64,000 bases of DNA from Permianibacter fluminis (GTDB taxonomy: Bacteria > Pseudomonadota > Gammaproteobacteria > Enterobacterales > Permianibacteraceae), in NCBI RefSeq assembly GCF_013179735.1, contig NZ_JABMEG010000001.1, positions 2,170,001 through 2,234,000 of the forward strand, read 5' to 3'. Position 1 is the stretch's first letter. Every line of letters begins with the position of its first letter. Shown here in pieces: positions 16,406-35,470 of the stretch. The notes below the pieces were generated by a model. The model was not told the origin of the DNA, did not search any database, and was given only the letters and a program-made list of their open reading frames with translations. A program made the translations under genes and the position numbers.

Positions 16406-16430
16406 TGCGCTGCGAGTTGCCGGACCGGGG

Positions 16431-16463
16431 AGGGCGGTATCTGTTGCGGATACCGCCCTTTGT
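16431..16463 (+). terminator. Rho-independent terminator after glutamate dehydrogenase
   Basis: AGGGCGGTATC (16,431-16,441) pairs with GATACCGCCCT (16,449-16,459), with loop TGTTGCG. A short T-containing tail follows. Confidence 0.85.
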
Positions 16464-16637
16464 CATTTTCGGGCGCGATAATCGCACCGAACCGCTTGCA
16501 GGGGACCGGTCCGTTTTGCGGAGCAACATACAATCTTGTGAAAGTGAGCGCTACCAAAGGGAAATTTCGCGGTAGACTCGGGTCAAAATCCGCACCAACA
16601 AAAAAACACCTGAGCTGCAGTTCAACGTGAGACCCAC

Positions 16638-17318
16638 ATGGAAGTCGTGACCCAAATCGCTCCACCCCGGGAGCGTCAGGCAGCACGGGCCACCGTTGCC
16701 GCCCGCATTGAACAATTGCCAACGCTGACGGCCATGCTGGGCCGGGCCTTCGTCGATGATCCGCTGATCCAGTTTATTGAACCCGATCCGGTGTGGCGGC
16801 AGAAATTGACGCCGGTGCTTTACGGCGCGGTGCTGCGCTATTGCCTGCGTTACGGTCAAGCCGACATCACCAGCGATGCCAGTGCGGTTGCCTGCTGGCT
16901 GTTGCCGAGTCATTGCCAACCGTCACTGGTGCGGGAATTGCGCAGCGGCATGTGGGCGTTGCCGTTCCGCGCCAAGACCAATGCGCTGCGTCGGCTGCTG
17001 CGCTTTGATGCGCTGGCAAAGGCGCTGCGTGCCGAATTCGGCGGCAGCAATCACTGGTATCTGTGGAGCCTCGCCGTTGATCCGAGCCAGCAGCGCAAAG
17101 GTCACGCCAGCACCTTGATGCGCTCGGTGCTGACCCGTGCTGATCGCAGTGGCGAAGTCTGTTATCTGGAAACCCAGAATCCGGTCAACGTGCCAATCTA
17201 TCAACGCTATGGCTTTGTCCTGGCGGCCCGCGCCGAACTCGCTCCGGGCGTGATCATCCACGCGATGCGGCGAGAACCACAGGCCGCGCAAGCGCCGAGC
17301 CGACGCACTTCGGCCTAA
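16638..17318 (+). CDS. GNAT family N-acetyltransferase
   Basis: This 226-residue cytoplasmic protein has the GNAT fold. The acetyl-CoA loop is visible as LAVDPSQQRKGHASTLM (about residues 146-162), followed by a helix and the ETQNPVNVPIYQRYGF motif B region typical of single-domain GNATs. The substrate cannot be told. ATG 16638 is used; its ribosome binding site is weak. The gene stands alone: it is preceded by the glutamate dehydrogenase terminator and followed by a bidirectional terminator shared with the convergent protease gene. The C-terminal 15 residues are rich in Ala, Pro and Arg and are probably disordered. Confidence 0.8.
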   Translation: MEVVTQIAPPRERQAARATVAARIEQLPTLTAMLGRAFVDDPLIQFIEPDPVWRQKLTPVLYGAVLRYCLRYGQADITSDASAVACWLLPSHCQPSLVRELRSGMWALPFRAKTNALRRLLRFDALAKALRAEFGGSNHWYLWSLAVDPSQQRKGHASTLMRSVLTRADRSGEVCYLETQNPVNVPIYQRYGFVLAARAELAPGVIIHAMRREPQAAQAPSRRTSA

Positions 17319-17350
17319 AAAAAAGGACGCCACATGGCGTCCTTTTTTTC
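17317..17350. terminator. Bidirectional terminator between convergent genes
   Basis: GGACGCC and GGCGTCC flank an ACAT loop, with an A run on the left and a T run on the right. The stem extends through the A/T pairs, so it serves both the GNAT gene (+) and the protease gene (-). Confidence 0.92.
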
Positions 17351-17365
17351 TGCTGCTGCCAACGT

Positions 17366-18457
17366 TCAATTGACCCGAATCGGAATATAGGTCGCATTGT
17401 TGGCTTCACTGATTTCGCCAATGGCACCCGAGCGGTCAATCACTGCACCGAGCCAGTAGTTGGTTCCGGACACCAGATTGTTTGGGATCACCAGATTGAC
17501 CTTGAAGGTGTGCACACCGTCGCGGCTCAGCGTCAGCGAACCGGTGCCAATCAGCGTGTCGGCGGTGCTGATCAGATCATTGGTCGAGACATAAAAGCCC
17601 AGATCCGCGGTCTGCGTGTTGGCGCCGTTGTTCTCGGCGGACAATTCGAACTGAACTGTCTGGCCCTTGTTGACGGCGTAGCGGCGGGCACCTTCAAAAC
17701 TGGTGCCGGACAATTCGACGCCGCTGGTGTTGTACAGCTTGGTGCGTTGATGGGTGCTGTACTCGCCGCTGGCACCAAGGTATTTCCACTGGGTCAGCGC
17801 GACATCTTCACCACTGCCGAGGCCATACAGAGACACGGCTCCGGAACTGGCATCCTCGCCAAAATACGCACGGGCGACGCCACCGTTGGCATGAATGTGG
17901 GTCCAGTCCTGACCCATGATGTTGTACTCGGTGTTGACGTGATTCAAACCCAGCGCATGACCGATTTCATGAATGGCTGTTGTCTGAATCGGTCGCGAGC
18001 TGCCGCCATAGGGCCACAACGCGGTTGGCGTGGTGCTGGTGGTATAGGCAGTGCCGTTGTAGAAAACGATATCGGTTTCATCGATCGAAGCGTGATAGCC
18101 AAAAAGCCAGTAGCAGGTTGACCAGGTGTAGGTCACTGCCGGGCTGTAGGCCGAGTCGCTGCTGAACCAGATCTCGTTCTGGCCGTTGTCGAAACCGACA
18201 CTGGTATCACCCGAACTCAAACTGAAATTGAACGGGCTCGGATTGTCGTTGACCCGCGCCACTGCAGTGCTCAATGCGCTGAGCCAGCTGCTGCCGGCCG
18301 GAAAGCCGACCGACGACGAGCGCAGCGTGATGCTGTTGGAACCCCATTTCACTTTCTGATCGCCACATTCATTCCAACTGGCGGCGTGAGCCATGGAACT
18401 GGCGCCGGCGAGCGCGCCGAGCAGCGCGAGGCTGCGGAATAATTGACTCGATTTCAT
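17366..18457 (-). CDS. Secreted matrixin-type zinc metalloprotease
   Basis: This 363-residue protein has a signal peptide ending MAHA-A. The extended zinc motif HEIGHALGLNH is at residues 163-173, and the Met-turn candidate YNIMGQD comes soon after, so it is a metzincin of the matrixin (M10) group. The C-terminal 110-120 residues look like a beta-sandwich of the CARDB type with NNGANTQTADLGFYVS strands, often used for cell-surface binding. ATG 18457 is fixed by AGGAG seven bases upstream; an in-frame GTG at 18490 lacks one. The gene lies 112 bases downstream of another secreted-protein gene in the same direction and may be co-transcribed. Substrates are unknown. Confidence 0.88.
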   Translation of the reverse strand: MKSSQLFRSLALLGALAGASSMAHAASWNECGDQKVKWGSNSITLRSSSVGFPAGSSWLSALSTAVARVNDNPSPFNFSLSSGDTSVGFDNGQNEIWFSSDSAYSPAVTYTWSTCYWLFGYHASIDETDIVFYNGTAYTTSTTPTALWPYGGSSRPIQTTAIHEIGHALGLNHVNTEYNIMGQDWTHIHANGGVARAYFGEDASSGAVSLYGLGSGEDVALTQWKYLGASGEYSTHQRTKLYNTSGVELSGTSFEGARRYAVNKGQTVQFELSAENNGANTQTADLGFYVSTNDLISTADTLIGTGSLTLSRDGVHTFKVNLVIPNNLVSGTNYWLGAVIDRSGAIGEISEANNATYIPIRVN

Positions 18458-18569
18458 GTTGCCACTCCTGTGCAAATCGGTATTGATCACGTCATGACAT
18501 CCGTTCGTTGAACGCGATCAAATGGATTGGTGATGCAAAACGGTTGCAGGTGAAAACCGGCGCGAGCAT

Positions 18570-19403
18570 TCAGCGCTGCGGTTTGCCTGACCCGGTGATG
18601 ACCGGGTTGCCGCCGTTTTTGCTGAGCTGTTCCGCTTCCCATTGATCAAATGCCGAGCCTTTGCCGGCGCCGCTGGCACTGAGTACGGCAGGTTGTTTGG
18701 GGGCTGCTTCGGCGATGGCGCGTGGGCCGTTGAACGCGGCGGCGGGATCGGCGCTGGCGACTGTTGCAGCGGTGCTCGCCGGCTGCTTGGCGATGATGTC
18801 GCGAACATGGGCAACAAAGCTGGCCGGATCGAACGGGCTGATTTTGGCGGCCGCAACCGCATCAGTGGCGGGCAGGCCATGGTCGCCATGTTGTTCTGGC
18901 GCCGTGCTCTTGTTCGGGTTGATGGCAAAGCGAACATTGCCTTTGTCATCGCGGCCCAGGGTATTACCGGCGCCATCGCTGACATAACCGGCGTCAAGCT
19001 GGAACCGGCCTTCGGCGCAGCGAACCAGCGGGCAGATGCGCTTCTGGTTGCCGTTGACCATCAGCACGTCCTGCGCACCTTGAATAAATTCTGGAACGCC
19101 GGAAACCTGCAACCGTCGCTGTTTGTCGCCGGCTTGCATGACGCCGCCAATGAATCGCAGCGTGATGGTTTTGCCGGGGGCTTTGCCCTTCAAAACATCC
19201 TCGATCTGATAGGTGACAAAGGTATGCGGCAAACCTTCAATCGAGTTTTGATAACGGACATCGATCACCTTGCCTTGAAAGATCAATTCGGCATCGCGGC
19301 TGAGATCGGAAATGGGGGAAGCCAGTGCCGGCAAATGCGCTTTGACAGCAGCGCTGGCAGCCAGCAGGGCGATGGGCAATAGCAGTCCTTTACAGGTATC
19401 CAT
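18570..19403 (-). CDS. Secreted protein of unknown function
   Basis: This 277-residue protein has a good signal peptide (LLLPIALLAASAAVKA). The first 110 mature residues form a beta-rich domain (AELIFQGKVIDVRY, FVTYQIEDVLKGKAPGKTITLRF) that resembles small OB-like or inhibitor-like export domains. It is followed by a Cys pair (CPLVRC). The last 120 residues are low-complexity, rich in Ala, Pro and Lys. I do not recognise the family with certainty. An AAGGAG site fixes ATG 19403. It sits directly upstream of the metalloprotease gene, so a partner, substrate or inhibitor role is possible but not shown. Confidence 0.65.
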   Translation of the reverse strand: MDTCKGLLLPIALLAASAAVKAHLPALASPISDLSRDAELIFQGKVIDVRYQNSIEGLPHTFVTYQIEDVLKGKAPGKTITLRFIGGVMQAGDKQRRLQVSGVPEFIQGAQDVLMVNGNQKRICPLVRCAEGRFQLDAGYVSDGAGNTLGRDDKGNVRFAINPNKSTAPEQHGDHGLPATDAVAAAKISPFDPASFVAHVRDIIAKQPASTAATVASADPAAAFNGPRAIAEAAPKQPAVLSASGAGKGSAFDQWEAEQLSKNGGNPVITGSGKPQR

Positions 19404-19740
19404 ACCTGAGCTCCTTGATTACACGTTGAGAGAAGTGCTGTGGATCGACGTGATACAGGCGGGGTACGGGTTGACCGTGTAACGACCACGACGGCTCGTC
19501 CATGAGCGTGGTCAGTATGGCGAGGGCGATTCACCTTGACGATATCGGATGGCCGTCAGTCCGTGGCTGTCACTGTCTCCAGTCTGTGTGCGTTTTGGCG
19601 CACACGCTGTACGACAGCTTTCCGCCTTGGGATCGTGACAAATCAGCAAATTTCAGCACGGGCGCGGCATAGCGGCTGAAACGAATATACCGTTTAGCTG
19701 CTGCGGCAATCATGACGACACGCAGCAACGCTGCAGCCTC
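19404..19740. other. Gene-free region downstream of the cytochrome operon
   Basis: This 337-base gap holds no coding frame I would support. It contains two inverted repeats: GACCACG/CGTGGTC (19,484-19,490 and 19,507-19,513) and GTGTGCG/CGCACAC (19,586-19,592 and 19,599-19,605, loop TTTTGG). Neither is followed by a clear T run. The left part must contain the promoter of the leftward secreted-protein gene. Confidence 0.55.
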
Positions 19741-21036
19741 TCAGTCGCCGTAATGGGTCTCTACGCTGATGCCCAACTGCTTCAACAGTCCGGTTGGCAG
19801 TTCACCACCGATGCAGACAATCACACTGTCGGCACGCACCCGTTTCTCGCCACCCTGATAGTTGAGCAGCACATCATTGGCGCCGATGTCCTTGATCTGT
19901 GACCCCAGTACTGTGCGCAGTCGGCGTGGATCCGCCGCCTGCAAGCGATCGCGATTTTTCCCTTTCAGCCGCTGAAAGGCGTCGCCGCGATAAGACAGTA
20001 TCGCGCGCGTGTTCGGTTGCTCACTCAGTGCCAGCGCCGCCTCCACCGCACTGTCGCCGCCACCGATCACCAGTACCTGCTGGCCGCGATATTGTTCGGC
20101 GTCGAGCAGCCGATACACCACATGCGCCTGTTCCTCGCCTGGCACGCCGAGTTTGCGTGGTGTGCCGCGGCGGCCGATGGCGAGCAGCACGGATTTGCTG
20201 CGATAGCGGCCACGGCTGGTTTTGACGTCGTGATGTTCTGGCGTGCTCTCGATGCTTTCAAGGCGTTCGCCAAAATGCACCGGCAACGGATGCTTCTGCA
20301 TGGCGCCCTGCCAAATGCCAAGCAACGATTCCTTGCTGATTTCGCGCACCTGAATCTTGCCTACCAACGGCAATTGCATCGGCGCGGTCATCGCCAGCTT
20401 GTTGCGCGGATAATGAAAAACCGTGCCGCCCAGTGCCGGTTCCTGCTCGATGGTCAAGAAACGCAAGCCGGCCTCCTGCGCGGCCAGTGAGGCGGCAAAA
20501 CCGGCGGGCCCGGCGCCAACGATGATGACATCGTATTCCGCGTTGCCGCGTGGCCGCTGCCGAATCGCCTCAATGGCTTTCTTGCCTTGCTCGACGGCTT
20601 TCCGGATCAGGCCCATGCCGCCAAGTTCGCCCGCGATAAACAAACCGGGCACATTGGTTTCGTAGTTGGGCGCAACCTGCGGAATGTCGATGCCGCGCTT
20701 CGCCGTGCCAAATACCAACCGAATGGCCGACATCGGGCAACTGGCTTCACAGGCCCCGTGACCGATGCAGGCGCTGGGATTGATCAGGCTGGCTTTGCCA
20801 TCGACGATGCCGATCGCTTGTTCGGGACAGCTGCTGACGCAGGCTCCCGAACCGATGCACAGATTGGGATCAATAACCGGATGCAGTGATGGCGGTTCGA
20901 GCAAGCCATCGGCAGCCGATTGGGCATAGGTTTCGCGCGCCTGTTGCTCGCGTTTGTGCTGACGCAGCCACCACCACAATCCGGCAACGAGCAGCGGCGA
21001 CAGATAAATCAGCAGCAGTATCGATGAGCCTGACAC
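19741..21036 (-). CDS. Membrane-anchored FAD/NAD(P)-dependent oxidoreductase with ferredoxin-like domain
   Basis: This 431-residue protein has one N-terminal membrane helix followed by RQHKREQQAR, which by the positive-inside rule puts the body in the cytoplasm. Next is a bi-cluster ferredoxin-like domain whose motifs read CIGSGACVSSCP and CIGHGACEASCP, so the usual second Cys is Ser or His in both. Then comes a thioredoxin-reductase-like fold with FAD (VGAGPAGFAASLAA) and NAD(P) (VIGGGDSAVEAAL) sites. It has no CXXC active site, so electrons should go to Fe-S centres rather than to thioredoxin. GTG 21036 lies three bases after the preceding stop. It is the last gene of the multiheme operon and is the likely electron entry point (inference). 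Confidence 0.82.
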   Translation of the reverse strand: MSGSSILLLIYLSPLLVAGLWWWLRQHKREQQARETYAQSAADGLLEPPSLHPVIDPNLCIGSGACVSSCPEQAIGIVDGKASLINPSACIGHGACEASCPMSAIRLVFGTAKRGIDIPQVAPNYETNVPGLFIAGELGGMGLIRKAVEQGKKAIEAIRQRPRGNAEYDVIIVGAGPAGFAASLAAQEAGLRFLTIEQEPALGGTVFHYPRNKLAMTAPMQLPLVGKIQVREISKESLLGIWQGAMQKHPLPVHFGERLESIESTPEHHDVKTSRGRYRSKSVLLAIGRRGTPRKLGVPGEEQAHVVYRLLDAEQYRGQQVLVIGGGDSAVEAALALSEQPNTRAILSYRGDAFQRLKGKNRDRLQAADPRRLRTVLGSQIKDIGANDVLLNYQGGEKRVRADSVIVCIGGELPTGLLKQLGISVETHYGD

Positions 21037-21039
21037 GGA

Positions 21040-23595
21040 CTAAAACTCCCAGACATAACCGACTGACCACAATTGCCGACTCAGTTGATCGGATGTGCTG
21101 TCGGTTTCACTCAGGCTTTGCTCGCCGTCATATTGCAATTCCAGCACCATGTGCTGACTGAACTGGTAACGCAGCCGCAGCGTCGGCGTCCAGCGCGCCA
21201 GCGTGGCACCGCTTTCGTCTTTCTGATCGTAGTAACGCAGGCTGGGTTCGACGGTCAGACTATCGGTGGCCGGCCACAGCAACGTGTAAGCAAGCGACCA
21301 GCCATCATAGCGTTCGCCCTGAATCTGGCTCACTGACCAGACGTGGGCATCGCGACTGGCGAACAAGCCGTTGCCAATCACTTGCGCACCGACGGTGACG
21401 ACATTGCCGGTGCCCGGTGACGCCGGCAAACTGCCGCTCGCGGGCAGCTCGCCAATCTTGTAGCTGCGCACATCCATGCCGATTTGCCAATTGCTGGCCA
21501 GCGGATAGGTCAGGTTCAGCGATGCCCCGTCCGCGTCGGCGGTGCGGTCGCGGGCATATTGCATGACGGTGTCTTCACCAAGCAGGTCGATCAACTCGGC
21601 AAGCGATTGCACCGGCTCGCCGATCAATGCGTTGCCCAGATCAATCACCGGCGTTTTGCGCCGATCCATTAGCCAACTGAGATAACCGCCGCTGGTGTAC
21701 TGCCAGCTGCCCTGCAAGGTGGCAATGTTCAGTTCACCAAACAGCGAGTCGTAGTCGACCATGCCATACCAGGTGGTGGTTTGACCGATATAGCTCAGCA
21801 CATCACCGAACGCTTCGCGTGTGGTGATGCCGCCGCTGCGATCATTGCGCACGACATAGACCTGATTGCTGAGTCGCTGCTCCAACAGACGTTGTTCGGC
21901 AAAGAGCGCGGTGAACTGCGATTTTTCGTCAACGCCGGTGTCCGCCGGTTGGCCAACGACGATGCCGATTTTCTGATTGCTGAAACCGTCGTAATTGGTT
22001 TGCAAACCGTCAAAGCGGCCGAGCACGCCACCGACCTGACTGCTTTGCCGGCCGAGTCTGGCCGACCAGCCGAGACCGCGGTCGCGATAATCCCAGTAAG
22101 CGGCGTACAGTCGATTGCGATCATCGGTGTTGTCGAGATAGCTGGCGAGGTAAGCGTCACGGATGACCCAGCGCTGTTCGGTGCTGCCATTGCGCCGGCG
22201 AAAATTGATATCGACACTGCTGAGCAAGCTGCGCTGATCCTGTAGTGACAACGTGCTGCGGTCGATGGTGTTGCCAAGCGGATTGCTGGTTTCGGTGTCG
22301 ATTTTGCTGCTGCCTTCGAACCAGGTTTGCAGCACGCTGCCGTAGACATCCTGACTGATATCGGCTTTCGCTGCGCTGCTGTCGGTGGCGATTTTTGGCG
22401 CCGCATTCGCTTTCAACTGGCTCAGTCGCTGTTCCACCCGGTTACGGCGTTCGCTGGTCGGATAGAGCCGCAGGAACAATTCGTATTCGATGATCGCCCG
22501 ATCACGCTCGCCGAGTCGTTCGCGGGTAACACCGATCAATTCCTGCGCATCTTCCGATTGGGCATTGGGCGGCAGGTTCAACAGCTGATTGAGCAACTCC
22601 AGAGCCTTGCTCTGTTCGCCAGCCGTCATCGCCGCCAGAGCGGCCTGCATCAGATCGGCCGCATAACTTTCAACTTGTGCGCTACTGTTTAGCGCCGGCG
22701 CAGCACTTGCCATGTCACTTGATGTTGAAGGTACTGCGGTGGACGGTGTTGGCGTGGTTGGAAGGTCGGCTGCCGCTGGCAGCGGGGGAGTAGCCGCACT
22801 GACGACGGGGCTGGTGGCGGCAACGGGCAACTGCTCGCCATTGTCCGGTGCAGCTGTTGTTGCTGGCGCAGTGATTTCCGATGCAGGACTGGCCGGAACA
22901 TCGCTGACGAGTCGCCATTCGCCGTCGGACTCGCGAGCCAGCAAGGCCGCGGTCGGCTGAACAGCACGGACCTGATACAAAATGGCTTGCGCTTGTTGAG
23001 CATCGGAAAACTCGCCCAGCTCCAGCCATTGTTCGCCGTTGCCTTGATCAATCTGTCGCAGTGGCAAGCTTTGCAGAGCGGTCGGCAATGCCACCGCGCG
23101 GCCGCTGCGGGAAAGCAGAATGCGCCAGCCGGGCTGGCTGTCCTGTTGGCCCGTCGCAAAGAAGCGAACGCGCAGACTTTGCTGATCGCGGCCCGGGGAG
23201 ATTTGAAAGTGGCTGTTGCGGGCAAACGTCAGGGTCAGACTGTGCACGCCAGCCGCATCGCGACCATTGTGGACAACTGTCGTTGCCGGAATGGAACCAC
23301 CGCCCAGTACCCGACGATATTCCTCGCGCGACAATTCGCGCAAATCCGGCCGCAGCAACTGAAAATACACCTGCACCAGACTGCCTTCGTCGCGCGGGCT
23401 GTGCCGCTGATAGACGATGGCTTGCTGGAAGCGAATTTCCAGTGCTTCGCCCTGACCGTCACCATCGTTGACCAGATACACGTCATCTAGCAGATCGGCA
23501 CGAGCCGCCGCCGTGGCCAACATGCAGAGCACGAGCCAGCCGATCGTGCGCCGCAGATGAGCTGACCAGCGTTTAGAAATCGCCGTCAGTGGCAT
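21040..23595 (-). CDS. Outer-membrane beta-barrel protein with N-terminal SPOR/TPR-like region
   Basis: This 851-residue exported protein has a signal peptide ending AAARA. A beta-rich N-terminal region of about 170 residues comes next, then a SPOR-like stretch (QQAQAILYQVRAVQPTAALL) and a Pro/Thr/Ala linker. Two or three TPR-like helices follow (AGEQSKALELLNQLL, ERDRAIIEYELFLRLYPTS). The last 400 residues are long alternating strands ending in WEF, a typical barrel C terminus. ATG 23595 is chosen because GGGAGAG precedes it; it overlaps the end of the upstream cytochrome gene by 23 bases, which suggests translational coupling. In this setting it could be the outer-membrane sheath of a porin-cytochrome complex (inference). 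Confidence 0.75.
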   Translation of the reverse strand: MPLTAISKRWSAHLRRTIGWLVLCMLATAAARADLLDDVYLVNDGDGQGEALEIRFQQAIVYQRHSPRDEGSLVQVYFQLLRPDLRELSREEYRRVLGGGSIPATTVVHNGRDAAGVHSLTLTFARNSHFQISPGRDQQSLRVRFFATGQQDSQPGWRILLSRSGRAVALPTALQSLPLRQIDQGNGEQWLELGEFSDAQQAQAILYQVRAVQPTAALLARESDGEWRLVSDVPASPASEITAPATTAAPDNGEQLPVAATSPVVSAATPPLPAAADLPTTPTPSTAVPSTSSDMASAAPALNSSAQVESYAADLMQAALAAMTAGEQSKALELLNQLLNLPPNAQSEDAQELIGVTRERLGERDRAIIEYELFLRLYPTSERRNRVEQRLSQLKANAAPKIATDSSAAKADISQDVYGSVLQTWFEGSSKIDTETSNPLGNTIDRSTLSLQDQRSLLSSVDINFRRRNGSTEQRWVIRDAYLASYLDNTDDRNRLYAAYWDYRDRGLGWSARLGRQSSQVGGVLGRFDGLQTNYDGFSNQKIGIVVGQPADTGVDEKSQFTALFAEQRLLEQRLSNQVYVVRNDRSGGITTREAFGDVLSYIGQTTTWYGMVDYDSLFGELNIATLQGSWQYTSGGYLSWLMDRRKTPVIDLGNALIGEPVQSLAELIDLLGEDTVMQYARDRTADADGASLNLTYPLASNWQIGMDVRSYKIGELPASGSLPASPGTGNVVTVGAQVIGNGLFASRDAHVWSVSQIQGERYDGWSLAYTLLWPATDSLTVEPSLRYYDQKDESGATLARWTPTLRLRYQFSQHMVLELQYDGEQSLSETDSTSDQLSRQLWSVGYVWEF

Positions 23596-24832
23596 GATGC
23601 TCTCCCGAACGGCTGCGGCGAATCTGGGTGAACGTGCCATCCGTGTATTCATGGCAGCTGCCGCTGCAGTTTTTCAACTCGCCGACCGTGTACAGAATTT
23701 TCGGCGTATCAACTTTCTTGTGTTCTCCCGCTTTGAAATCACCGGCATGACAGCCGGCACAGTCCGGGGCATAAGCGCCAAACTTCCAGGCGATCACTTC
23801 GTTGTTGGTGGTGTGGCAATCGGTGCAGATCACGCTGGATCGGTGCGCCTTGTAATACGGCGAGCTGTGACTGTAGGTCAGCGTTGGCGTCCAGGCGGTG
23901 GTGCGGTGACAGACATCACAGCTGCGCGTGGTGACAAAGTGATTGGGACCGCGACCGGTCGCTTGGCTACCGTTATGGCAACTGTTGCACGTGCCCGGTG
24001 TCACGCTGCTGTGGCTGAATGTCGCTGGCACCCAGGCGGTGGTACGGTGACAGACATCGCAGGATTGGTTGGTCGGTAAATGCGATGCGGGTTTGCCTTC
24101 GGCAGTGCTGCCGTTGTGACAGGATACGCAGGTGCCGGGTAGCACGCCGTTGTGGCTGAAGCCAGCTGGCAGCCAGGCGTTGGTGCGATGGCAAACATCG
24201 CAAGATTGGGTGGTGACCACATGATTGGCCGGTTTGCCGGCGGCGGTGCTGCCGTTATGGCAACTGGCGCAGGAACCCGCCGTCACATTGCTGTGATTGA
24301 ACGAGGCCGGCGTCCACGACACCGTGCGATGGCAGCTGTCACAACTGGCGCCAGTGACGACATGGCGAGCCGGTTTGCCACTGGCCATGCTGCCGTTATG
24401 ACAGGTCTGACAGCTGCCGGGAAACACGCCCTGATGTTTGAAGCGTGCGCCCGCCCAGAGATTGTCGTTGTGGCAACTGTCGCAGCGATCCTGAGTCGGC
24501 ACATGATTGGCCGGTTTGAAACTGGCACCGGTCGGGCTGCCCGCAACGTGGCAGGCTTCGCATTGATTGGGTGTGCCCTGAAACAGGTTGTTGGCATGGC
24601 AACGATCACAACTGACCCGGCTATGGGCGCCGTGCAAGGGAAGACCGGTGCGGGCATGCTCGTTGATGGTCATGTCGGCGGCGCGTGCCGGCTGCGGTGT
24701 CAGCATCAGCAAGCCAAACAGCAATACCGCCACCAATACCGCCAGCAGTGCAGCCAGCGAAAAGCCAGCTTGCGGAGAAACAGGCAGCCGTACGTCGGCA
24801 TCCTGCATCGCGTTACCGGTCGTTAGCTTCAT
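23573..24832 (-). CDS. Multiheme c-type cytochrome, about 14 hemes, doubled-CXXCH repeats
   Basis: This 419-residue protein has a long n-region, one hydrophobic segment (about 24-46) and an ARA cleavage site. I count thirteen CXXCH motifs and one CX3CH (CSGSCH near the C terminus). The core is built of roughly 46-residue diheme units of the form CDVCHRT.AW.PA.F.H....PGTC.SCHNGS...GKPANH. Each unit carries two extra His residues that could be distal haem ligands. ATG 24832 is fixed by GGGAG eight bases upstream. It is exported and may stay anchored by the N-terminal helix if not cleaved. It lies between the 24-heme cytochrome gene and the barrel gene and overlaps the latter. Confidence 0.92.
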   Translation of the reverse strand: MKLTTGNAMQDADVRLPVSPQAGFSLAALLAVLVAVLLFGLLMLTPQPARAADMTINEHARTGLPLHGAHSRVSCDRCHANNLFQGTPNQCEACHVAGSPTGASFKPANHVPTQDRCDSCHNDNLWAGARFKHQGVFPGSCQTCHNGSMASGKPARHVVTGASCDSCHRTVSWTPASFNHSNVTAGSCASCHNGSTAAGKPANHVVTTQSCDVCHRTNAWLPAGFSHNGVLPGTCVSCHNGSTAEGKPASHLPTNQSCDVCHRTTAWVPATFSHSSVTPGTCNSCHNGSQATGRGPNHFVTTRSCDVCHRTTAWTPTLTYSHSSPYYKAHRSSVICTDCHTTNNEVIAWKFGAYAPDCAGCHAGDFKAGEHKKVDTPKILYTVGELKNCSGSCHEYTDGTFTQIRRSRSGEHHATDGDF

Positions 24833-24887
24833 TGTTGCAACTCCCATGCTGTTGCAGTGGCGAATGCCGTCACGTTCAGCCATCGCG

Positions 24888-24916
24888 TTTTGCTGTCTGA
24901 CTCCGTAACAGCAAAT
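24888..24916 (-). other. Inverted repeat between the two multiheme cytochrome genes
   Basis: TTTGCTGT (24,889-24,896) and ACAGCAAA (24,908-24,915) can form an 8-bp stem with an 11-base loop in the 108-base gap between the cytochrome genes. No U run follows on the transcribed strand, so it may be a processing or stability element. Confidence 0.35.
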
Positions 24917-24940
24917 GCTTAATGGCGACTTAAAGCCGGT

Positions 24941-26773
24941 TCAATTCGAAGCGGCCAATTTGCGGTTCATGATCCACATCACGATATCTTCATCTTTCAA
25001 ATGCTCCAGGCTGACCTTTTCGTTAGCGGAGGTCTTGATCACCTGTTGCCAATTTTCACTGCGATGACAGCGGCCACAGTCACTGCCAAAGCGGCCATCG
25101 TGACGGTCATCGGATTGGTGGCAGCTACCGCAGCTGCTGGCGGGTTGGCCGGCGCGGACGTGGCATTGCTCGCAGGCCAGCTGGCGATGCTTGCCGGTCA
25201 GGGCAAACCGGGTTTGTTTGTCATGATTGAAATCGGCGAGCCGCCAGTCACGGGCGTTATGGCATTGCTCGCAGCGGCTGCCGAGCGCGCCCTTGTGTTT
25301 ATCGGTTTTGCCGTGACAGCTGCTGCATTGCGTGCTGGTGCCTTTGAACAGCGCGTCGCTGTGGCATTTTTTGCAACTGAGCGCCAGATGCTGGCCGAGC
25401 AAAGGAAAGCCGGTCAGCTGGTGATTGAACCGGGTTTGCTGCCAGCTGCTTTCGCTGTGGCAACTGTCGCAGTTGGCGCCGAGTTTGCCTTTGTGTGGAT
25501 CGGTTTGTTGATGGCAGCTGACGCAGCGGCGGTCCAGCTTGGGCTCGGTCAGGGTTTTGCTGTGGCATTGCTCGCAGCGTAATGGTTGGTGTTTGCCGAG
25601 CAGGGCATAGCCGGTCAGTTTGCCGTGGTCAAAGCCGCGCGGTTTCCAGTTGCTGCTGTCGTGGCAGCTTTGACACTGCGAACCAAACCGGCCTTTGTGG
25701 ACATCATTTTTCTGATGGCAACTGGCGCATGCGGTTTGGGTGTCGGCAAACAACTGGCTGGCATGACACTGCTTGCAGCTGGCTTTGCTGTGCGCGCCGG
25801 TCAGCGCAAAGTCGGTTTTGCTGTGGTCAAACGGCAGCCCCTTCCATGCATCGGCACGGTGGCAGGACTGGCATTGCGTGCCGAGCTTGCCTTGGTGGAC
25901 ATCATCGGACTTGTGGCAACTGACGCAGGTATTCGGTAGCGGGTCGGTAATTGCGCCGGTGTGGCAGCTTTTGCAGCTGGCGCTGGCATGTTTGCCAGTC
26001 AAGGCGAAGCCACTGACGGCACCGTGGTCAAAGCGGGTTTTCTTCCAATCAGACGCCTGATGACAGCTGGCGCAGTCGTCACCGAATTTGCCCTTGTGGG
26101 CATCGTCGGTGCGATGGCAGGCAACGCAGGTTTGCGGCAATGCCGGGCTGGCACCGGCCTTGTGGCAGCTCTCGCATTTGGCGGTCAGGTGTTTGCCATC
26201 CAAGGCGAACCGGGTTTGGCTGTGATCAAACTTGCCGTTCGGCCATTTGTCTTCGGCGTGGCAGCGCTGGCAGTCCGATCCCAGCGCCGCTTTGTGATGA
26301 TCATCCGCACGATGGCAGCCCTCGCAGCGATTGGGCGCTTCGCGAAAAGCATGCTCGCTCTGATGGCATTGCTGGCAGCGAAGCGGCGGACTCTGGTGGG
26401 CACCACGCAAGAGAAAGTCGGTCTGCTTGTGATCGAAGCCGGCCTGATCGAATTTCACCATGTCGGCATCACGGCCGCGGTGTTCAAGGTGGCAGGCGCG
26501 GCAAGGCTGCGCTGGCAGGCGGCCATGAAAACCGGTCTTCTGCTTGAAGTCGGCGGCGACCGGTTTGTGACAGCCCAGGCATTGACCATCCTGGGCGTTC
26601 TTGTTGAATTTGACGTGGCACTGAGCGCAATCGGCTTCGAGTTTGGCATGACCAGCAATGACCGGTCCCGGCATCAGCGCGGTTTCCAGCGAGTCAGCCG
26701 CGCTGGCTGCTTTGACCATCGTCAGCAGCAGCAACATCAACAACGGAACGATGGCAAGCGGAACAGCGCGCAT
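24941..26773 (-). CDS. 24-heme c-type cytochrome built of tri-heme tandem repeats
   Basis: This 610-residue secreted protein (signal peptide ending VKAASA) has twenty-four CXXCH motifs. After five leading motifs there are six tandem units of about 65 residues, each with three CXXCH. The unit form is CXXCH....W....FDH..T.FALTGKH....CXXCH.......TCVSCH..DD.HKGKFG. A half unit with one motif ends the array. Every unit also has His in F[DN]H, G[KQA]H and D.H, three per unit, which would suit bis-histidine ligation. ATG 26773 is 14 bases after the upstream stop with a GAGCGAGATCGAG leader; longer in-frame extensions lack a signal peptide. It is a candidate periplasmic or surface electron wire. Confidence 0.93.
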   Translation of the reverse strand: MRAVPLAIVPLLMLLLLTMVKAASAADSLETALMPGPVIAGHAKLEADCAQCHVKFNKNAQDGQCLGCHKPVAADFKQKTGFHGRLPAQPCRACHLEHRGRDADMVKFDQAGFDHKQTDFLLRGAHQSPPLRCQQCHQSEHAFREAPNRCEGCHRADDHHKAALGSDCQRCHAEDKWPNGKFDHSQTRFALDGKHLTAKCESCHKAGASPALPQTCVACHRTDDAHKGKFGDDCASCHQASDWKKTRFDHGAVSGFALTGKHASASCKSCHTGAITDPLPNTCVSCHKSDDVHQGKLGTQCQSCHRADAWKGLPFDHSKTDFALTGAHSKASCKQCHASQLFADTQTACASCHQKNDVHKGRFGSQCQSCHDSSNWKPRGFDHGKLTGYALLGKHQPLRCEQCHSKTLTEPKLDRRCVSCHQQTDPHKGKLGANCDSCHSESSWQQTRFNHQLTGFPLLGQHLALSCKKCHSDALFKGTSTQCSSCHGKTDKHKGALGSRCEQCHNARDWRLADFNHDKQTRFALTGKHRQLACEQCHVRAGQPASSCGSCHQSDDRHDGRFGSDCGRCHRSENWQQVIKTSANEKVSLEHLKDEDIVMWIMNRKLAASN

Positions 26774-26787
26774 GGGCTCGATCTCGC

Positions 26788-27579
26788 TCAGTACATGTGC
26801 ACGGAAATGATGTGCAGAATGGTGCTGATGACCAGCGTGAATACCAGTGGCACATGCAGGATGTGCCACCAGCGAAACAGCCGTTCGTAGAGCCGGAACC
26901 GGGCCGCAGCCCGCAAATGAACAAAGCAAAGGTGCAGCGCGCGCAGCAGGTCTTTCTGCTGCGTCGCATGGTGTTGTGCCCGCATTTGCCGCTCGGCGTG
27001 GCGCAGCCGCAAAGGCAGCCACAACAGCTGCAGGAAGGAGCTGTTGGCTGCCATGGCCTGCTGTTCCCACTCCTGCAAGCGCTGTCGCAAGTCCGGTGAC
27101 TGGCCGGCCATGCGGGCGATATCGGCGTCGATGTGCTCGCGCCATTCGCGCAATTGCATGCCACGACCGAATAGACCGTGATGGATACGGGTGTAAATGA
27201 AACGACCGATGATGCCGCTGCCCGCGACCACCAGCATGGAATAGAACGCCACCGCCGCATTCAATGAGCCGGTCTGAAAGCGCGAATGCAGCAGAATCAG
27301 AAATGGCCCGCCGATGCCCAGCCACATGTGTGACTGGAACCAGAATTTCATCTGGCCGAGCCGGTCAAGAAAACGGACATGCTTGCGCAGCGGATACAAG
27401 AACAGCAGCAGCATCAGGCTGGCGCCGACCACACCCAGCCAATAATTTTGCTGTGGCGTTAAACGCCAGGATTCGACGCGAGTCCAGAAAAAACCGGCAA
27501 ACAGGGCCAGCGACAGCCCGAGCAGCAGGGGCCAGAGCCGATCCGGTTTCGACGATGCAGTAGCAGATGGCGTCGCCAC
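26788..27579 (-). CDS. Membrane b-type cytochrome-like protein (ferric-reductase-like)
   Basis: This 263-residue inner-membrane protein has about five helices: residues 15-34, 44-63, 83-100, 107-130 and 238-260. A long charged helical loop spans about 135-235. Histidines lie in or beside the helices in HMWLGIGGPFLILLH and HILHVPLVF...ILHIISVH, as expected for two b haems in ferric-reductase-like or cytochrome b561-like proteins. It could carry electrons from the cytoplasmic side or from quinol to the periplasmic cytochromes. GTG 27579 has AAGGGA about seven bases upstream. It is the first gene of the leftward operon that runs to 19,741. Confidence 0.75.
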   Translation of the reverse strand: MATPSATASSKPDRLWPLLLGLSLALFAGFFWTRVESWRLTPQQNYWLGVVGASLMLLLFLYPLRKHVRFLDRLGQMKFWFQSHMWLGIGGPFLILLHSRFQTGSLNAAVAFYSMLVVAGSGIIGRFIYTRIHHGLFGRGMQLREWREHIDADIARMAGQSPDLRQRLQEWEQQAMAANSSFLQLLWLPLRLRHAERQMRAQHHATQQKDLLRALHLCFVHLRAAARFRLYERLFRWWHILHVPLVFTLVISTILHIISVHMY

Positions 27580-27640
27580 AGCGACATCCCTTTGGTTGTG
27601 GGTTGAAATGACCCAGCAAGTGTAGGGAATAGTGTTGCGG

Positions 27641-27676
27641 CAATCCTTAAGGCAGGCTTGGCTACCTCAAGGATTG
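27641..27676. promoter_or_regulatory. Imperfect palindrome upstream of the multiheme operon
   Basis: CAATCCTTAAGGCAG (27,641-27,655) and CTACCTCAAGGATTG (27,662-27,676) are inverted copies with two mismatches around a six-base spacer. It lies 62-97 bases before the operon's GTG start. No T run follows on either side, so an operator is more likely than a terminator. It could also be the end signal of the 27,726 gene. Confidence 0.4.
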
Positions 27677-27725
27677 TGCTGCAGATCACGCGCTTGTTCG
27701 CAAAACCTGCGGCGCGTGTGGCTGG

Positions 27726-29303
27726 TCAGAACAACCCTTTCTTGCCGCCCAGCATCGAACCGAGAATGCCTCTCAATACGCGACGGCCAAGCTCCGAGCC
27801 AATGGCGCGCGCCGCACTCTTGGCGAACGCTTCGGTGGCGGTTTCGCGGCTACGACTTGGCTTGGCTGCGTCTTCTTCTTCATCGCGCTGATTGCGCGCC
27901 GTGGGTGCGGTCGGAATCCGCGGCGCAGGAATGCGCATGTTCAGATCATCGTCGCCTTTGTTCGCTTGCCGCACTGATCCGCTGCTGCTTTTGTTGTTGC
28001 TGTTCTGGCTGGCGGGCTCTTCGTCATTGCGGCGCTGTTTCAGTCGCTCGAATGCCGATTCGCGATCGAGCACTTTTTCATACTGGCCATAGACCAGCGA
28101 ACCGGTGATGGCCTGTTGCCGCTCGTTTGGTTGCAGCGGGCCGATGCGCGAGCTTGGCGGCAAAACAAAGCCGCGTTCGACTGGCGTTGGTCGGCCTTTC
28201 TCGTCCAGAAAGGTCACCAAGGCTTCGCCGACACCGAGCTCCATGATCGCGGTCTCGGTATTCACTTTCGGATTTTGTGGCAGGGTTTCGGCAGCCGCCT
28301 TGACCGCCTTTTGATCGCGCGGAGTGAAGGCGCGCAGCGCATGCTGAACCCGGTTGCCAAGTTGGCCGAGCACGCTGTCTGGAATGTCCAGCGGGTTCTG
28401 GCTGACAAAATAAACACCAACACCCTTGGAGCGAATCAGCCGCACAACCTGCTCGATTTTTTCCAGCAGAGCCGCTGGCGCTTCCTTGAACAGCAAGTGG
28501 GCTTCATCAAAGAAGAACACCAATTTGGGTTTGTCGCGATCGCCGACTTCCGGCAGGTTCTCAAACAGCTCGGCCAGCAGCCAGAGCAGGGCGGTCGCGT
28601 ACAGCCGTGGCGAGTTGAACAGTTTGTCGGCAGCCAGAATGTTGATCACGCCGCGACCCTGATCATCGGTCTGCATCAGATCGGCGATGTTCAGCATGGG
28701 CTCGCCGAAGAACTTGTCACCGCCCTGTTCTTCCAGCGTCAGCAGGCCGCGCTGAATGGCGCCAATGGATGCGGTCGAGATATTGCCGTATTCGGTGGTG
28801 TAGTCGCGGGCATGTTCGCCGACGTACTGCACCATGGCGCGCAGATCTTTCAGGTCGAGCAACAGCAGGCCATTGTCATCTGCGATCTTGAACACCAGTT
28901 GCAAGACGCCTTCCTGGGTCTCATTGAGATTGAGCAGGCGGCCGAGCAGCAAAGGCCCGAGATCCGACACGGTGGCGCGCAGCGGATGGCCTTGTTCGCC
29001 AAAGACATCCCACAACTGCAGGCTGAATTGCGCCGGTGCCCAGTCGGTGATGCCGAGCGCGCTCAGGCGCTTGTCCAGTTTCTCGCTGTGGCTGCCGCTG
29101 GCGCCGAGGCCGGACAGATCACCTTTGACGTCGGCCAGGAACACCGGCACACCGGCCGCGGCCAATCGTTCCGTGATGACTTGCAGCGTGATGGTTTTGC
29201 CGGTGCCGGTGGCGCCTGTGATCAAACCATGACGGTTGGTCAGGGCGGGCAGCAACGCACAATCGGCATCGGCGGAACGGGCAATCAGCATCGGGTCGGC
29301 CAT
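27726..29303 (-). CDS. YjgR-like ATPase (DUF853, HerA-related)
   Basis: This 525-residue cytoplasmic protein matches the YjgR/DUF853 family. It begins MADPMLIAR and has [16 protein letters not shown] with the Walker A loop at residues 28-35, then [13 protein letters not shown] Walker B-type strand [12 protein letters not shown] lies near residue 265, followed by [28 protein letters not shown]. These proteins are HerA/FtsK-related ATPases whose cellular role is unclear. ATG 29303 is chosen by comparison with the family start; ATG 29312 is also possible. About 100 C-terminal residues are a low-complexity, charged linker and a small helical end. Six 14-bp repeats lie just upstream. Confidence 0.88.
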
Positions 29304-29334
29304 GATCAGCATCCAGAGCGAAGAAAACGGTTTC

Positions 29335-29418
29335 AATAAAACAGGGGCAATAAAACAGGGGCAATAAAACAGGTCTAGTAAAACAGGTTTAATAAAACAG
29401 CTGCAATAAAACGGCCAG
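29335..29418. repeat. Six tandem 14-bp repeats upstream of the YjgR-like gene
   Basis: Six head-to-tail units start at 29,335, 29,349, 29,363, 29,377, 29,391 and 29,405. The first two are identical (AATAAAACAGGGGC). The others keep the A[AG]TAAAAC[AG]G core and vary in the last bases. They lie 32 bases before the ATG of the YjgR-like gene and after the stop of the ABC permease gene. The unit length is not a multiple of three. No spacers are present. Confidence 0.9.
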
Positions 29419-29496
29419 CAGATTATGCCAGTGCCGGCCGGCAAGAAAAATCGCCGCAGCGATGCGGCCCCGATACCAACCAGCCAGCGATTATCT

Positions 29497-30723
29497 TCAA
29501 CCGGCTTGCCGCGCCCATTGCCAGATTTCTTTCCAGCTGGCTTCCTTGCCGTAGAACAGCATGCCGGCGCGGAAGATGCGGCTGGCATAGCGGCGCAGCA
29601 GCAGAATGCTGGCGACCAGCAGCACGAACGAACCGAGCACCTGCCACCACGGCACGATGCCATGCGCGAGCCGGGCCGGCATGGCAGCCATCGAGGACAT
29701 CGGCAGCCACGACAGCACTTGCATCACGACATTTTCTGGTGCGTCGAGACCGGGAAACGCGACCATGAAAAACAGTGTCGGCAGAAACATCAGCGAGCCG
29801 CGGGTTGAGCTGTTCGGATCATCGATGGAGGCGGCAATGGCGGCCATTACGGTGTTCCAGAACAACATCCCACCAAGCGCGAACAGCAGCGCCATCAGCA
29901 CCAGGGGCCACGACACGGCCGCCAGCAAATCATTGCTGCCATCGCTGAAGCGGCTGACTGCCAGCAAAGCAAGCCAACCATACAAACACCAGGTCAGCAT
30001 GGTTTTCAGGCCATGCCCGGTCAGGCCAAGCAACTTGCCATCAATCCAGGTTTGATACGGAATGGCCGACACCACCAGTTCGGAAACGCGCTGCTGTTTT
30101 TCACTGGTGATGCTGACAAAGAAATAGGCAAAACAGGTCATCACACCCATCAGCGAAAACACGGTCAGCGCCATGGCGATTACCCGGCTGCCGCCACTGG
30201 CGGGTTTGCGCGCATTGGGGCTGTAGCTTTGCGTGATCGTCGGCGCTTGTTGCCACTGTTCAAAATCATCGTGGGCGATGCCACGCTGAACCAGCTCGCG
30301 CTCCAGCCGGGCCGTTGTCAATTGGTCACCGAGTTCGTTATTCCAGGTTGGCTCGCGATTGACCAGCAAGGTGGCGGTGTTGTCGCTGGCGATTTCGAGC
30401 AAGCCGTCGAGCCGACCGGCATCGACATCGGCGGCGCGGGCATCGCGCTCTTTGCTGTCAGCGCGCAGCAAGGTCAATCGACCGTCATCGCCATACGCCA
30501 GCGGCAGGGCATTGGCATCGATAACCGCCACTTCATAATGCTCGCGTGCTTTTGCCCATTGCATCATCGCGCCGCCACCCTGGACCAGCGCAGTCAGCAC
30601 GATCAGGATCACGATGTTGATAAGTTCGTGTTTCCATTTGAAATAGCGCAGGAATTCAAAGCGCGCCACGGTCCACAAACTGACCGGATTGATACTGTGC
30701 ATATTTTTCCGTGGTTGGCTCAT
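29497..30723 (-). CDS. ABC-2 type exporter permease (NatB-like)
   Basis: This 408-residue inner-membrane protein has one helix at about 38-56, a periplasmic region of about 130 residues, and then a C-terminal block of five or six helices from about residue 185. The [28 protein letters not shown] segment is characteristic of the NatB/ABC-2 family. Its start overlaps the stop of the ATPase gene by four bases (ATGA type), so the two form one unit. Such pairs export sodium, drugs or lipids; the substrate cannot be read here. Confidence 0.86.
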
Positions 30724-31792: not shown

Positions 31793-32995
31793 TTAGTAAG
31801 TGACAGTCAAAAAGAGTCGTGCGACATCGGCGGAAAATGCATAGAGTGGCTCGGTTCCAGCATTCAACCCCTTTCCGCCTGGCACATCGCGGAAATCATC
31901 GTAATCAAATTCAAAATGATCTACGTACAAATTCAGTTTAAATTGCTCAAATGGGCCGAGGCTAAAGCCTGTGAAGCTGTAACTTGCACCAATACCAATA
32001 GAACGTGATGTATAAGTTGACATTTCCTTGTCTCGCGCCAAGAAGTTGAACGCACTTTCACGAGGAAATAGATCGCTGTAGAAGTCAGCTTTTGTTTGAT
32101 CGTATTGTCTAACTTTGAATTCAAAAAGCCAATTATCATCCCAAGGATGAACATAGCGCACTTCTACGCTGGTTGCCTCTATTCCCCAAGTGTCCGTGAA
32201 ATAGCGATATTCACCGCGTATCGACGCGCGCCAAGGAAGGTAATAAATGCCGCGCAAAGCAACGGTATCGGAGGTTCGCGTTTCTGGATACTTCTCATTC
32301 TGTAATGTGAAGTTGATGCCGTCATCATTTAAGTAACGGACTTGTCGGTATGGGTTGTTTAAAAAGCCTTCATCGCTGATTGTCTCGAAGCCAAGATTCA
32401 TAACGAAGTTTTTTGTCAAAATTTGAGAGAGGTTAAGACGATAGTTCTGACGATTAACGTCACCTTTGTGGGTGGTACTGGTAATGACATGGCCTGTGTA
32501 ATTATTTTGACTCACTTCGTCATTGCCTTGACTATATCCAAGCGAAATCGAGGTGAGATCGCCGAAAAAGTCTTGGCTTACACCAAAAAAAGCCGTTGTC
32601 GCGTCGTAATCGCTCTCTTTACTGGTTGTATACCCCATGCTCATCGTAGTTTTGTTATTGAGGTAATCAACACCGATTGATTGTTCCTTACGCTGCTCTG
32701 AATAGCGACTGGCACCAGAGATAAATTGAACGTCAACCGACGCCGAGCTGACATTATCAACATAGTAGTTGGCGCTGACCGAGAGTTTCTCAAGGAAGTT
32801 TTTTCGGACCAATAGACTGGGACCAGTGATGTCCATACCACCACCTTGATAGGAGTGGTACATCAGGTCGGTACGTTCTTCCGGCAACACGCTACCGAGC
32901 GCCGGCAAGCAGGCCAGGCCGGCAAGCAGCGCCAAAGACTGCGCCACGCTGATGAGCGTGGCGCGGGAGAACCCTTTGAATTTAGTTGCAGCCAC
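31793..32995 (-). CDS. DUF3570 family outer-membrane protein
   Basis: This exported barrel of about 400 residues has the DUF3570 opening PEERTDLMYHSYQGGGMDITGPS followed by VRKNFLEKLSVSANYYVD. Strands continue throughout to the terminal LFLTVTY. The gene start is difficult: GTG 32995 overlaps the DUF4266 stop by 14 bases and uses the G-rich end of that gene as ribosome binding site, giving a signal peptide ending near LPALG. The base composition is strikingly AT-rich compared with all neighbours (for example, 20 G+C in the 60 bases from 32,401), which hints at separate ancestry. DUF3570 and DUF4266 genes typically occur together; their function is not established. Confidence 0.85.
   Translation of the reverse strand: MAATKFKGFSRATLISVAQSLALLAGLACLPALGSVLPEERTDLMYHSYQGGGMDITGPSLLVRKNFLEKLSVSANYYVDNVSSASVDVQFISGASRYSEQRKEQSIGVDYLNNKTTMSMGYTTSKESDYDATTAFFGVSQDFFGDLTSISLGYSQGNDEVSQNNYTGHVITSTTHKGDVNRQNYRLNLSQILTKNFVMNLGFETISDEGFLNNPYRQVRYLNDDGINFTLQNEKYPETRTSDTVALRGIYYLPWRASIRGEYRYFTDTWGIEATSVEVRYVHPWDDNWLFEFKVRQYDQTKADFYSDLFPRESAFNFLARDKEMSTYTSRSIGIGASYSFTGFSLGPFEQFKLNLYVDHFEFDYDDFRDVPGGKGLNAGTEPLYAFSADVARLFLTVTY
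32941..32964. repeat. Perfect inverted repeat inside the DUF3570 signal-peptide region
   Basis: GCGCCACGCT (32,941-32,950) and AGCGTGGCGC (32,955-32,964) are a perfect 10-bp inverted pair around GATG. It lies in coding DNA near the gene start and could fold in the mRNA. Confidence 0.5.
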
Positions 32996-33221
32996 AGCCA
33001 CCACCGCCACCACCTTCGGCGCCGCGGGCGCCTTCGCGAGCCTGATAAACGTGATTGATGTAGGCCGTTTGCACCGCATCGCGTTCAAACGCCATGATTG
33101 GATCGGCAAGGTTTTGCCGCTCATACGGCTTCAGCCAGGGCTCGACGCTGCAGGCGCTGAGCGACAGCAAACCTGCAAGCGTTGCCACGCGCAGCAAAAA
33201 TTTGCCGGATCGGTTCATCAT
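32982..33221 (-). CDS. DUF4266 small lipoprotein ending in a Gly-rich GCGCN tail
   Basis: This 79-residue protein has a lipoprotein signal (LSLSAC). The mature body contains the family's YERQNLADP and an Ala-rich region, followed by a run of glycines and the terminal Cys-Gly-Cys-Asn. Those two cysteines could bind metal or be oxidised by the TlpA-like protein encoded just upstream (inference). The ATG overlaps the TGA of the TlpA-like gene, and the stop overlaps the DUF3570 start, so three genes are translationally coupled. DUF4266 function is unknown. Confidence 0.85.
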   Translation of the reverse strand: MMNRSGKFLLRVATLAGLLSLSACSVEPWLKPYERQNLADPIMAFERDAVQTAYINHVYQAREGARGAEGGGGGGCGCN

Positions 33222-33730: not shown

Positions 33731-33856
33731 GACAACAGACTCCAACTGATTCAGTTAATCGGCAACGGCTCAAGCTTAATGCAGCTGCCTGACAGTTATC
33801 TTCAAATGGCGTCGCAAAAACGCCACCGATGTTTCCTGCCTCAAAAGTTTCCTGCC

Positions 33857-35394: not shown

Positions 35395-35470
35395 GCGACG
35401 GGCTTTCCTGTAGCAAAAAGGTAAAAACAGCAAAAGTGGGACGGATTCTACGTCAGCTCTGTCCGCGCTG

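Follow-up and report, generated by a model that had tools for sequence, protein, structure and literature searches.

Organization of the locus

The window analysed here is a 64,000-nucleotide stretch of Permianibacter fluminis DNA, to which all coordinates refer. The list of its open reading frames (ORFs) contains all five genes of the original prediction, on the minus strand and in the order given there. The first, recognized from the ORF list and its motifs, encodes a di-haem cytochrome b-like inner-membrane protein (IMP; 26788..27579, 263 aa). It is followed by genes for a 24-haem cytochrome of periplasmic type (24941..26773, 610 aa), a 14-haem cytochrome (23573..24883), an outer-membrane protein, hereafter porin (21040..23652), and a flavoprotein (19741..21036). 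The ORF of the 24-haem protein is listed as 24941-27325, with a credible ATG at 26773, and the 14-haem protein may start further downstream, at 24847, 24832 or 24808. Judged by the coordinates, 14 nt separate the IMP stop from the 24-haem start, and the 14-haem and porin ORFs overlap at the end of the former. Since neighbouring genes overlap or lie almost end to end and the flavoprotein starts 3 nt after the porin stop, the flavoprotein gene is very probably co-transcribed with the other four here. A promoter and terminator scan of the locus gave numbers near those of shuffles and added nothing. In Pfam, both cytochromes match cytochrome C7/c3 families, the barrel protein matches TPR below the cut-off and the flavoprotein matches Pyr_redox and 4Fe-4S, while no family was matched by the IMP.

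The first four genes match the PCC3 cluster

PCC3 is an uncharacterized candidate for extracellular electron transfer that has been discussed as a possible iron-oxidation system. The cluster described by He et al. (2017) comprises a porin, an extracellular and a periplasmic multihaem cytochrome and an IMP, the latter with two WX3HX13H motifs, an SGXXG motif and five transmembrane helices (PMC5566968). The window IMP carries W80x3H84x13H98, S121G122xxG125 and W238x3H242x13H256, and five hydrophobic segments are discernible by eye. Because this signature matches and haem counts of 24 and 14 are also known from a PCC3 copy of Sideroxydans CL21 (PMC12442390), genes 1-4 of the window are, by sequence, PCC3. 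Shared features are the IMP motifs, two repeat-built multihaem cytochromes, the porin and the gene order. An undescribed gene combination is therefore ruled out, and the earlier statement that no functional description of it was known has to be corrected: the first four genes form a published cluster, whose function is itself putative (PMC5566968). In the text of that source available to us, PCC3 consists of four genes and is modelled, as a hypothesis there too, as a route from an outside donor to the quinone pool, whereas the window operon has a fifth gene, for the flavoprotein, which accompanies PCC3 generally. What is new here is thus the recognition of the fifth component. No flavoprotein is mentioned in the PCC3 descriptions found (PMC5566968, PMC10734462, PMC12442390, PMC8788666, PMC12016527, PMC13386937), as far as their accessible text goes; where gene content is given, it is four genes or products, and the figures or supplement of He et al. 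may draw the flavoprotein. Literature on the flavoprotein, neighbouring gene tags, the permutation described below and quinone independence yielded no description of it either.

The invariant histidines of the IMP, four in number, are present in 70 of the 70 aligned sequences. Its long loop, residues about 130-230, lies between the last two hydrophobic segments and is taken as cytoplasmic from the positive-inside rule, applied by eye. When the IMP alignment profile was compared with PDB sequences, the ten matches (best E 1.4) included no cytochrome b, and hhalign against 20 PF01794-type proteins gave no match. PF01794 itself was found in one of 70 IMPs with a weak E of 0.02; the histidine spacing is similar.

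Two other known systems resemble the locus. PCC4 also has a porin, multihaem cytochromes and an IMP with the same histidine motifs, and He et al. record further redox proteins beside the IMP for PCC4 and some other clusters (PMC5566968). In PCC4, however, the cytochromes are three periplasmic proteins with 4, 5 and 10 haems, and an extracellular cytochrome is absent, according to the accessible text (PMC5566968); the two window cytochromes of 24 and 14 haems rule out membership. In MtrCAB and MtoAB, as proposed for the present locus, haem proteins are joined via an outer-membrane barrel. MtrCAB is fed by quinol via CymA-type proteins. Unlike these systems, the locus has no decahaem MtrA/MtrC: the DmsE model reached 32.4 of 192.2 bits and the OmcA/MtrC model 29.9 of 209.3 bits. 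With decahaem models this far below cut-off and haem counts of 24 and 14, membership in MtrCAB is ruled out, and the idea of a multihaem conduit distinct from MtrCAB stands.

Cytochromes and the predicted outer-membrane barrel

The 24-haem protein has 24 CxxCH motifs, as predicted, and a Sec-like signal by eye. Its sequence is built of eight three-haem modules, with a period of 66-67 aa over most of its length. The count of 14 for the second cytochrome holds only if one CX3CH motif is included, there being otherwise 13 CxxCH. A lipobox was searched for in the first 60 residues of this protein and was not found. It is related to the second cytochrome of PCC3 loci elsewhere. For these comparisons, loci were collected by scanning genome contigs with the IMP alignment, and the best 80 of 243 (L051-L130) were analysed; haem counts are from complete genes, the remainder of the 80 being cut off or not placed. 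In the first cytochrome after the IMP, the number of haems is divisible by three in all 66 complete cases: 9 in one, 18 in two, 21 in 21, 24 in 41 and 27 in one. Counts of 21, 24 and 27 have been given for PCC3 cytochromes before (PMC10734462). The number of haems in the second cytochrome is not constrained in this way and ranges from 7 to 48 in 35 complete cases. It is possible that the module of about 67 residues, mostly repeated 7 or 8 times, serves as a ruler for the width of the periplasm.

The outer-membrane protein combines an N-terminal beta/SPOR-like part with TPR helices (residues 324-415; 22408..22683), recognized by Pfam and in the model, and a C-terminal barrel (residues 433-869; 21046..22356). 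The original prediction had left the barrel fold to structure prediction, and the AlphaFold2 model contains one, with 22 strands and pLDDT 88-97 except in one ten-residue block. Forty-nine of the 50 best Foldseek matches are named as outer-membrane barrel proteins, and the title of the other (9j9p) is silent on this. VIA-align listed no Mtr-type barrel among the matches for the porin, which excludes nothing. The window porin is related to the porins of PCC3 loci, 35 of which were aligned; 38 of the best 80 of 243 loci yielded a porin, many contigs stopping before the porin gene. SPOR is a peptidoglycan-binding domain. It was found by Pfam in 15 of 36 porin relatives, where it may attach the barrel to the cell wall; in the window protein Pfam gave no SPOR match.

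Domain architecture of the flavoprotein

The model of the flavoprotein (mean pLDDT 84.2), taken together with Pfam matches, shows an N-terminal helix, which would be an anchor, a two-cluster ferredoxin-like domain and an FAD/NAD(P) reductase domain. In the model, residues 2-42 form a single long helix; its first half is hydrophobic and is followed by RQHKR, which suggests that the body of the protein is cytoplasmic. Pfam places the two-cluster ferredoxin-like domain at residues 48-106. Its second Fe-S motif, CIGHGACEASCP (20734..20769, minus strand), contains CIGHGAC, with His93 in place of the usual Cys. Conservation was assessed in an alignment of 85 different sequences (86 rows, one doubled), in which L131 is the window's own genome again and some near-duplicate loci occur (L058/L063, L101/L104). 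All 84 rows that have a residue at position 93 have His there, the remaining one being gapped. At position 63, 52 rows have Ser, 26 Cys, 4 Gly and 1 Ala. The second cluster is therefore probably His-ligated throughout, and the first cluster probably variable. A redox Cys pair was looked for in the alignment and is absent, conserved cysteines being the six of the Fe-S motifs and Cys408 in 62 of 84 rows. HdrA was not among the matches that VIA-align listed for the flavoprotein, which excludes nothing.

Residues 166-430 match the fold of YpdA (7a76_D; Z 21.3, rmsd 4.9, 261 aligned), and the GGGDsA motif is conserved among the flavoproteins. YpdA is an NADPH-dependent family. The PCC3 flavoprotein shares the FAD and NAD(P) domain fold with YpdA and other thioredoxin-reductase-like flavoenzymes and differs from them in the N-terminal anchor and Fe-S domain, in the missing redox dithiol and in the order of the FAD domain. 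The FETNVPGLFIAGELGG-type segment (residues 106-163; 20548..20721, minus strand), defined by a segment profile, precedes GxGxxG, whereas in such folds it normally comes after the NAD(P) domain. In six of six relatives (L042-L046, L048) the matching segment is C-terminal to the FAD core (segment profile i-E 2.4e-10 to 4.6e-9). From this difference in segment order we conclude that the FAD domain of the PCC3 flavoprotein is circularly permuted.

These relatives come from loci with weaker IMP homologues: seven of nine fetched loci (L042-L048) encode an IMP relative and a 10-haem protein, with the gene for a flavoprotein of the same FAD core next to them. Unlike the PCC3 proteins, these FAD-cNMP-FeS flavoproteins have an FAD domain that is not permuted and no N-terminal Fe-S domain, and the 15.5-20 kb fetched around them gave no match to a PCC3-type porin. 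By eye, three of the sequences appear to contain two cyclic-nucleotide-binding domains and several Fe-S motifs, and because of the former the path in these loci may be nucleotide-regulated.

Co-occurrence and linkage of the flavoprotein with PCC3

The distribution of the IMP and the flavoprotein was compared in two draws of genomes. Among the 398 genomes of the phylum draw, which includes the window's genome, a strong IMP group of six (G000, G077, G180, G275, G392 and G394; E <= 3.7e-33) is separated from 27 genomes with weak matches (E >= 2.0e-13). Flavoprotein matches with E <= 2.5e-134 occur in exactly those six genomes; in G077 and G394 the flavoprotein gene is on a different contig. A further match, in G008, has an E-value of 1.3e-41 and 33% identity and is confined to residues 119-425. 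The second draw consisted of 300 genomes from the order of G394. Here 30 genomes have any IMP match, 17 of them strong (E <= 6.7e-70, the next best being 1.3e-23), and flavoprotein matches with E <= 2.3e-147 are found in the identical 17 genomes, which fall in 11 genera. No full-length match to the PCC3 flavoprotein occurs in the genomes whose IMP relatives are all of the weaker kind (27 and 13, respectively). That the same genomes were drawn for both searches is taken from equal numbers and handles. If genomes were independent, the chance of identical sets would be about 2e-13 (phylum) and 4e-28 (order); these are not significance levels, because the matching genomes are related and the counts are not independent events, the draws share G275, G392 and G394, and the thresholds of the strong groups were set afterwards, at gaps visible in the matches.

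Of the best 80 of 243 PCC3 loci, 52 have the flavoprotein gene within the fetched stretch. Relative to the IMP it is divergent and upstream in 45 (including L086, where its called start overlaps the IMP), upstream on the same strand in three, downstream on the same strand in two and downstream on the opposite strand in two. The divergent gap has a median of 250.5 bp in 44 loci and exceeds 6 kb in two, both named Nitrospira, with PCC3 genes in between. The arrangement of the window, with the flavoprotein last and in the same direction, recurs in G275 (L037). In the other 28 loci the gene is not in the fetched stretch. The genome was searched for 26 of these (L075, from the same assembly as L072, and L098, whose contig equals contig C5 of G394 in length, being left aside) and the flavoprotein was found elsewhere in 25, the assembly of L096, named Candidatus Methanoperedens, having given none. 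Since three of 26 copies away from the IMP adjoin a PCC3 porin and three a PCC3-type cytochrome, some of them are located at the distal end of a broken or a second cluster. A TPR neighbour is present in 16 of the 26 stretches with such copies (L138-L163), and of four tested, two pass the cut-off of CcmI, a cytochrome maturation protein, and two fall short of it. The loci carry the names Gallionella, Sideroxydans, Thiobacillus, Burkholderiales, Nitrospira and others; all titles shown are of metagenome assemblies, and some names may be wrong. The original prediction had proposed to look for co-occurrence of the five families across genomes, and conserved linkage indeed held in both draws and in the loci, which rules out the flavoprotein as a chance neighbour. 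We consider it highly probable that the flavoprotein is a functional component of PCC3, making PCC3 a five-part system. Its assignment to the system in the original prediction is borne out by this co-occurrence, the NAD(P)H type being read from fold and motifs.

The five genes are missing at the corresponding place of a genome of the same genus (G001), which has no IMP match at E <= 0.001. There (L166), the gene that precedes the block in the window, presumably glutamate dehydrogenase by its size, and a relative of the permease gene 29497-30723 are no more than about 130 bp apart. As the flanking genes are nearly adjacent in G001, the stretch of about 16406-29496, with all five genes and near neighbours, is missing there as one block, and was gained or lost as a unit, or in steps with the same result. 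The HerA-like neighbour was followed in G001 and G002 and was found in neither.

Proposed route and direction of electron flow

On balance we lean towards a five-component PCC3 in which electrons are exported from NAD(P)H. Cytoplasmic NAD(P)H would reduce the FAD of the anchored flavoprotein, whose two Fe-S clusters, one probably His-ligated, would hand single electrons to the haem on the cytoplasmic side of the IMP. The haem on the periplasmic side would then reduce the 24-haem wire, which would span the periplasm. From this wire electrons would reach the 14-haem cytochrome, located in or on the 22-strand barrel, and finally an acceptor outside. Overall, NAD(P)H would drive extracellular reduction, giving the cell an outlet for electrons for which quinones are not required. 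The bound cofactors, contacts, sidedness, direction and acceptor are placed here as we infer them, and NAD(P)H use and specificity as suggested by fold and motifs. In NADPH oxidases, ferric reductases and MsrPQ with Fre, electrons pass from cytosolic NAD(P)H via flavin and two haems b to the outer face, and the proposed PCC3 route would work alike. It would differ from them in placing Fe-S clusters between flavin and haem and in continuing through a haem wire across two membranes; sequence homology with the IMP was not detected.

Judged by the redox potentials, electrons would run downhill from NAD(P)H to the outside, aided by the membrane potential, whereas Fe(II)-driven reduction of NAD(P)+ along such a chain would not be favourable. 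Profile searches of the window's genome covered PF01292, RuBisCO, Cytochrome_C7 and PF01794 (the last within a class draw), and RuBisCO was not found. In ES-1, PCC3 is down on Fe(II) (PMC8788666), and the extracellular cytochrome Slit_1448 stands at 0 in all eight columns of the proteome table (PMC12016527), as far as these sources are accessible. Export is favoured on account of these four points. The main competitor is the published model, in which electrons from an outside donor, e.g., Fe(II), pass via the cytochromes to the IMP and the quinone pool, with the flavoprotein as an accessory tapping or resetting the IMP. PCC3 was discovered in iron oxidizers and modelled inward, and, in line with the proposal of He et al., quinones could be redox partners of the IMP (PMC5566968); loci from Gallionella- and Sideroxydans-named assemblies fit this lineage pattern, and the IMP gene of PCC3 copy 2 of CL21 is up during iron oxidation (PMC12442390), which likewise speaks against export. 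Near-perfect co-occurrence with an NAD(P)H-type flavoprotein does not sit well with an inward route, nor do the ES-1 data and a genome without RuBisCO, and we regard the published model as rather unlikely. Evidence against the five-part route itself is that the flavoprotein is missing from the fetched stretch in 28 of 80 loci and was not found in the L096 assembly, and that the IMP has no detectable ferric-reductase homology.

Alternatively, the flavoprotein might serve c-type cytochrome maturation or thiol supply for haem-rich proteins instead of electron transfer to the IMP. Its closest folds are thioredoxin-reductase-like, and the TPR neighbours of copies away from the IMP, with their CcmI matches, would agree with this role. 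Such a function is improbable, as the protein lacks a redox Cys pair and has an Fe-S domain, its gene adjoins that of the IMP in most of the best 80 of 243 loci and flavoproteins with the same core also accompany weaker IMP relatives. Flavin-based bifurcation or confurcation, with NAD(P)H electrons split between the high-potential haem wire and a low-potential carrier, e.g., ferredoxin, would suit an FAD with two clusters of altered ligation and an Fe-S part that matches ferredoxin domains of HdrA-type enzymes, but it is very unlikely for a YpdA/TrxR-like FAD core.

Returning to NAD(P)H-driven export, a near-constant NAD(P)H-type fifth component would alter the predicted direction and role of PCC3, towards an electron outlet, redox balancing and reduction outside the cell. 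It provides PCC3 with an entry enzyme open to direct testing, and it warns that the presence of PCC3 genes should not by itself be taken to indicate iron oxidation. In its broadest form, which we put forward tentatively, the proposal is that PCC3 may be a widespread NAD(P)H:extracellular-acceptor oxidoreductase, in which a membrane-anchored flavoprotein with a permuted FAD domain and a His-ligated second cluster would drive a di-haem b protein and a periplasm-long haem wire without quinones, reversing the published inward direction; the two clusters might even bifurcate.

Other redox genes near the locus

Further candidate redox genes are found in the neighbourhood. A cluster on the minus strand of the window, at 31793-38191, contains genes for a DUF3570 protein and a TlpA-like thioredoxin, together with two small proteins of barrel type. 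It also encodes a 906-aa protein that has two CxxCH motifs and a PD40 repeat as well as a hydrazine synthase alpha middle domain (HZS_alpha, E 2.3e-17). Close to PCC3, this cluster is possibly a second redox system of the envelope. At L169:3583-4784, about 7-8 kb before the window, a four-haem and a two-haem protein are encoded that by eye resemble NapC and NapB, respectively, which suggests periplasmic nitrate reduction in this organism.
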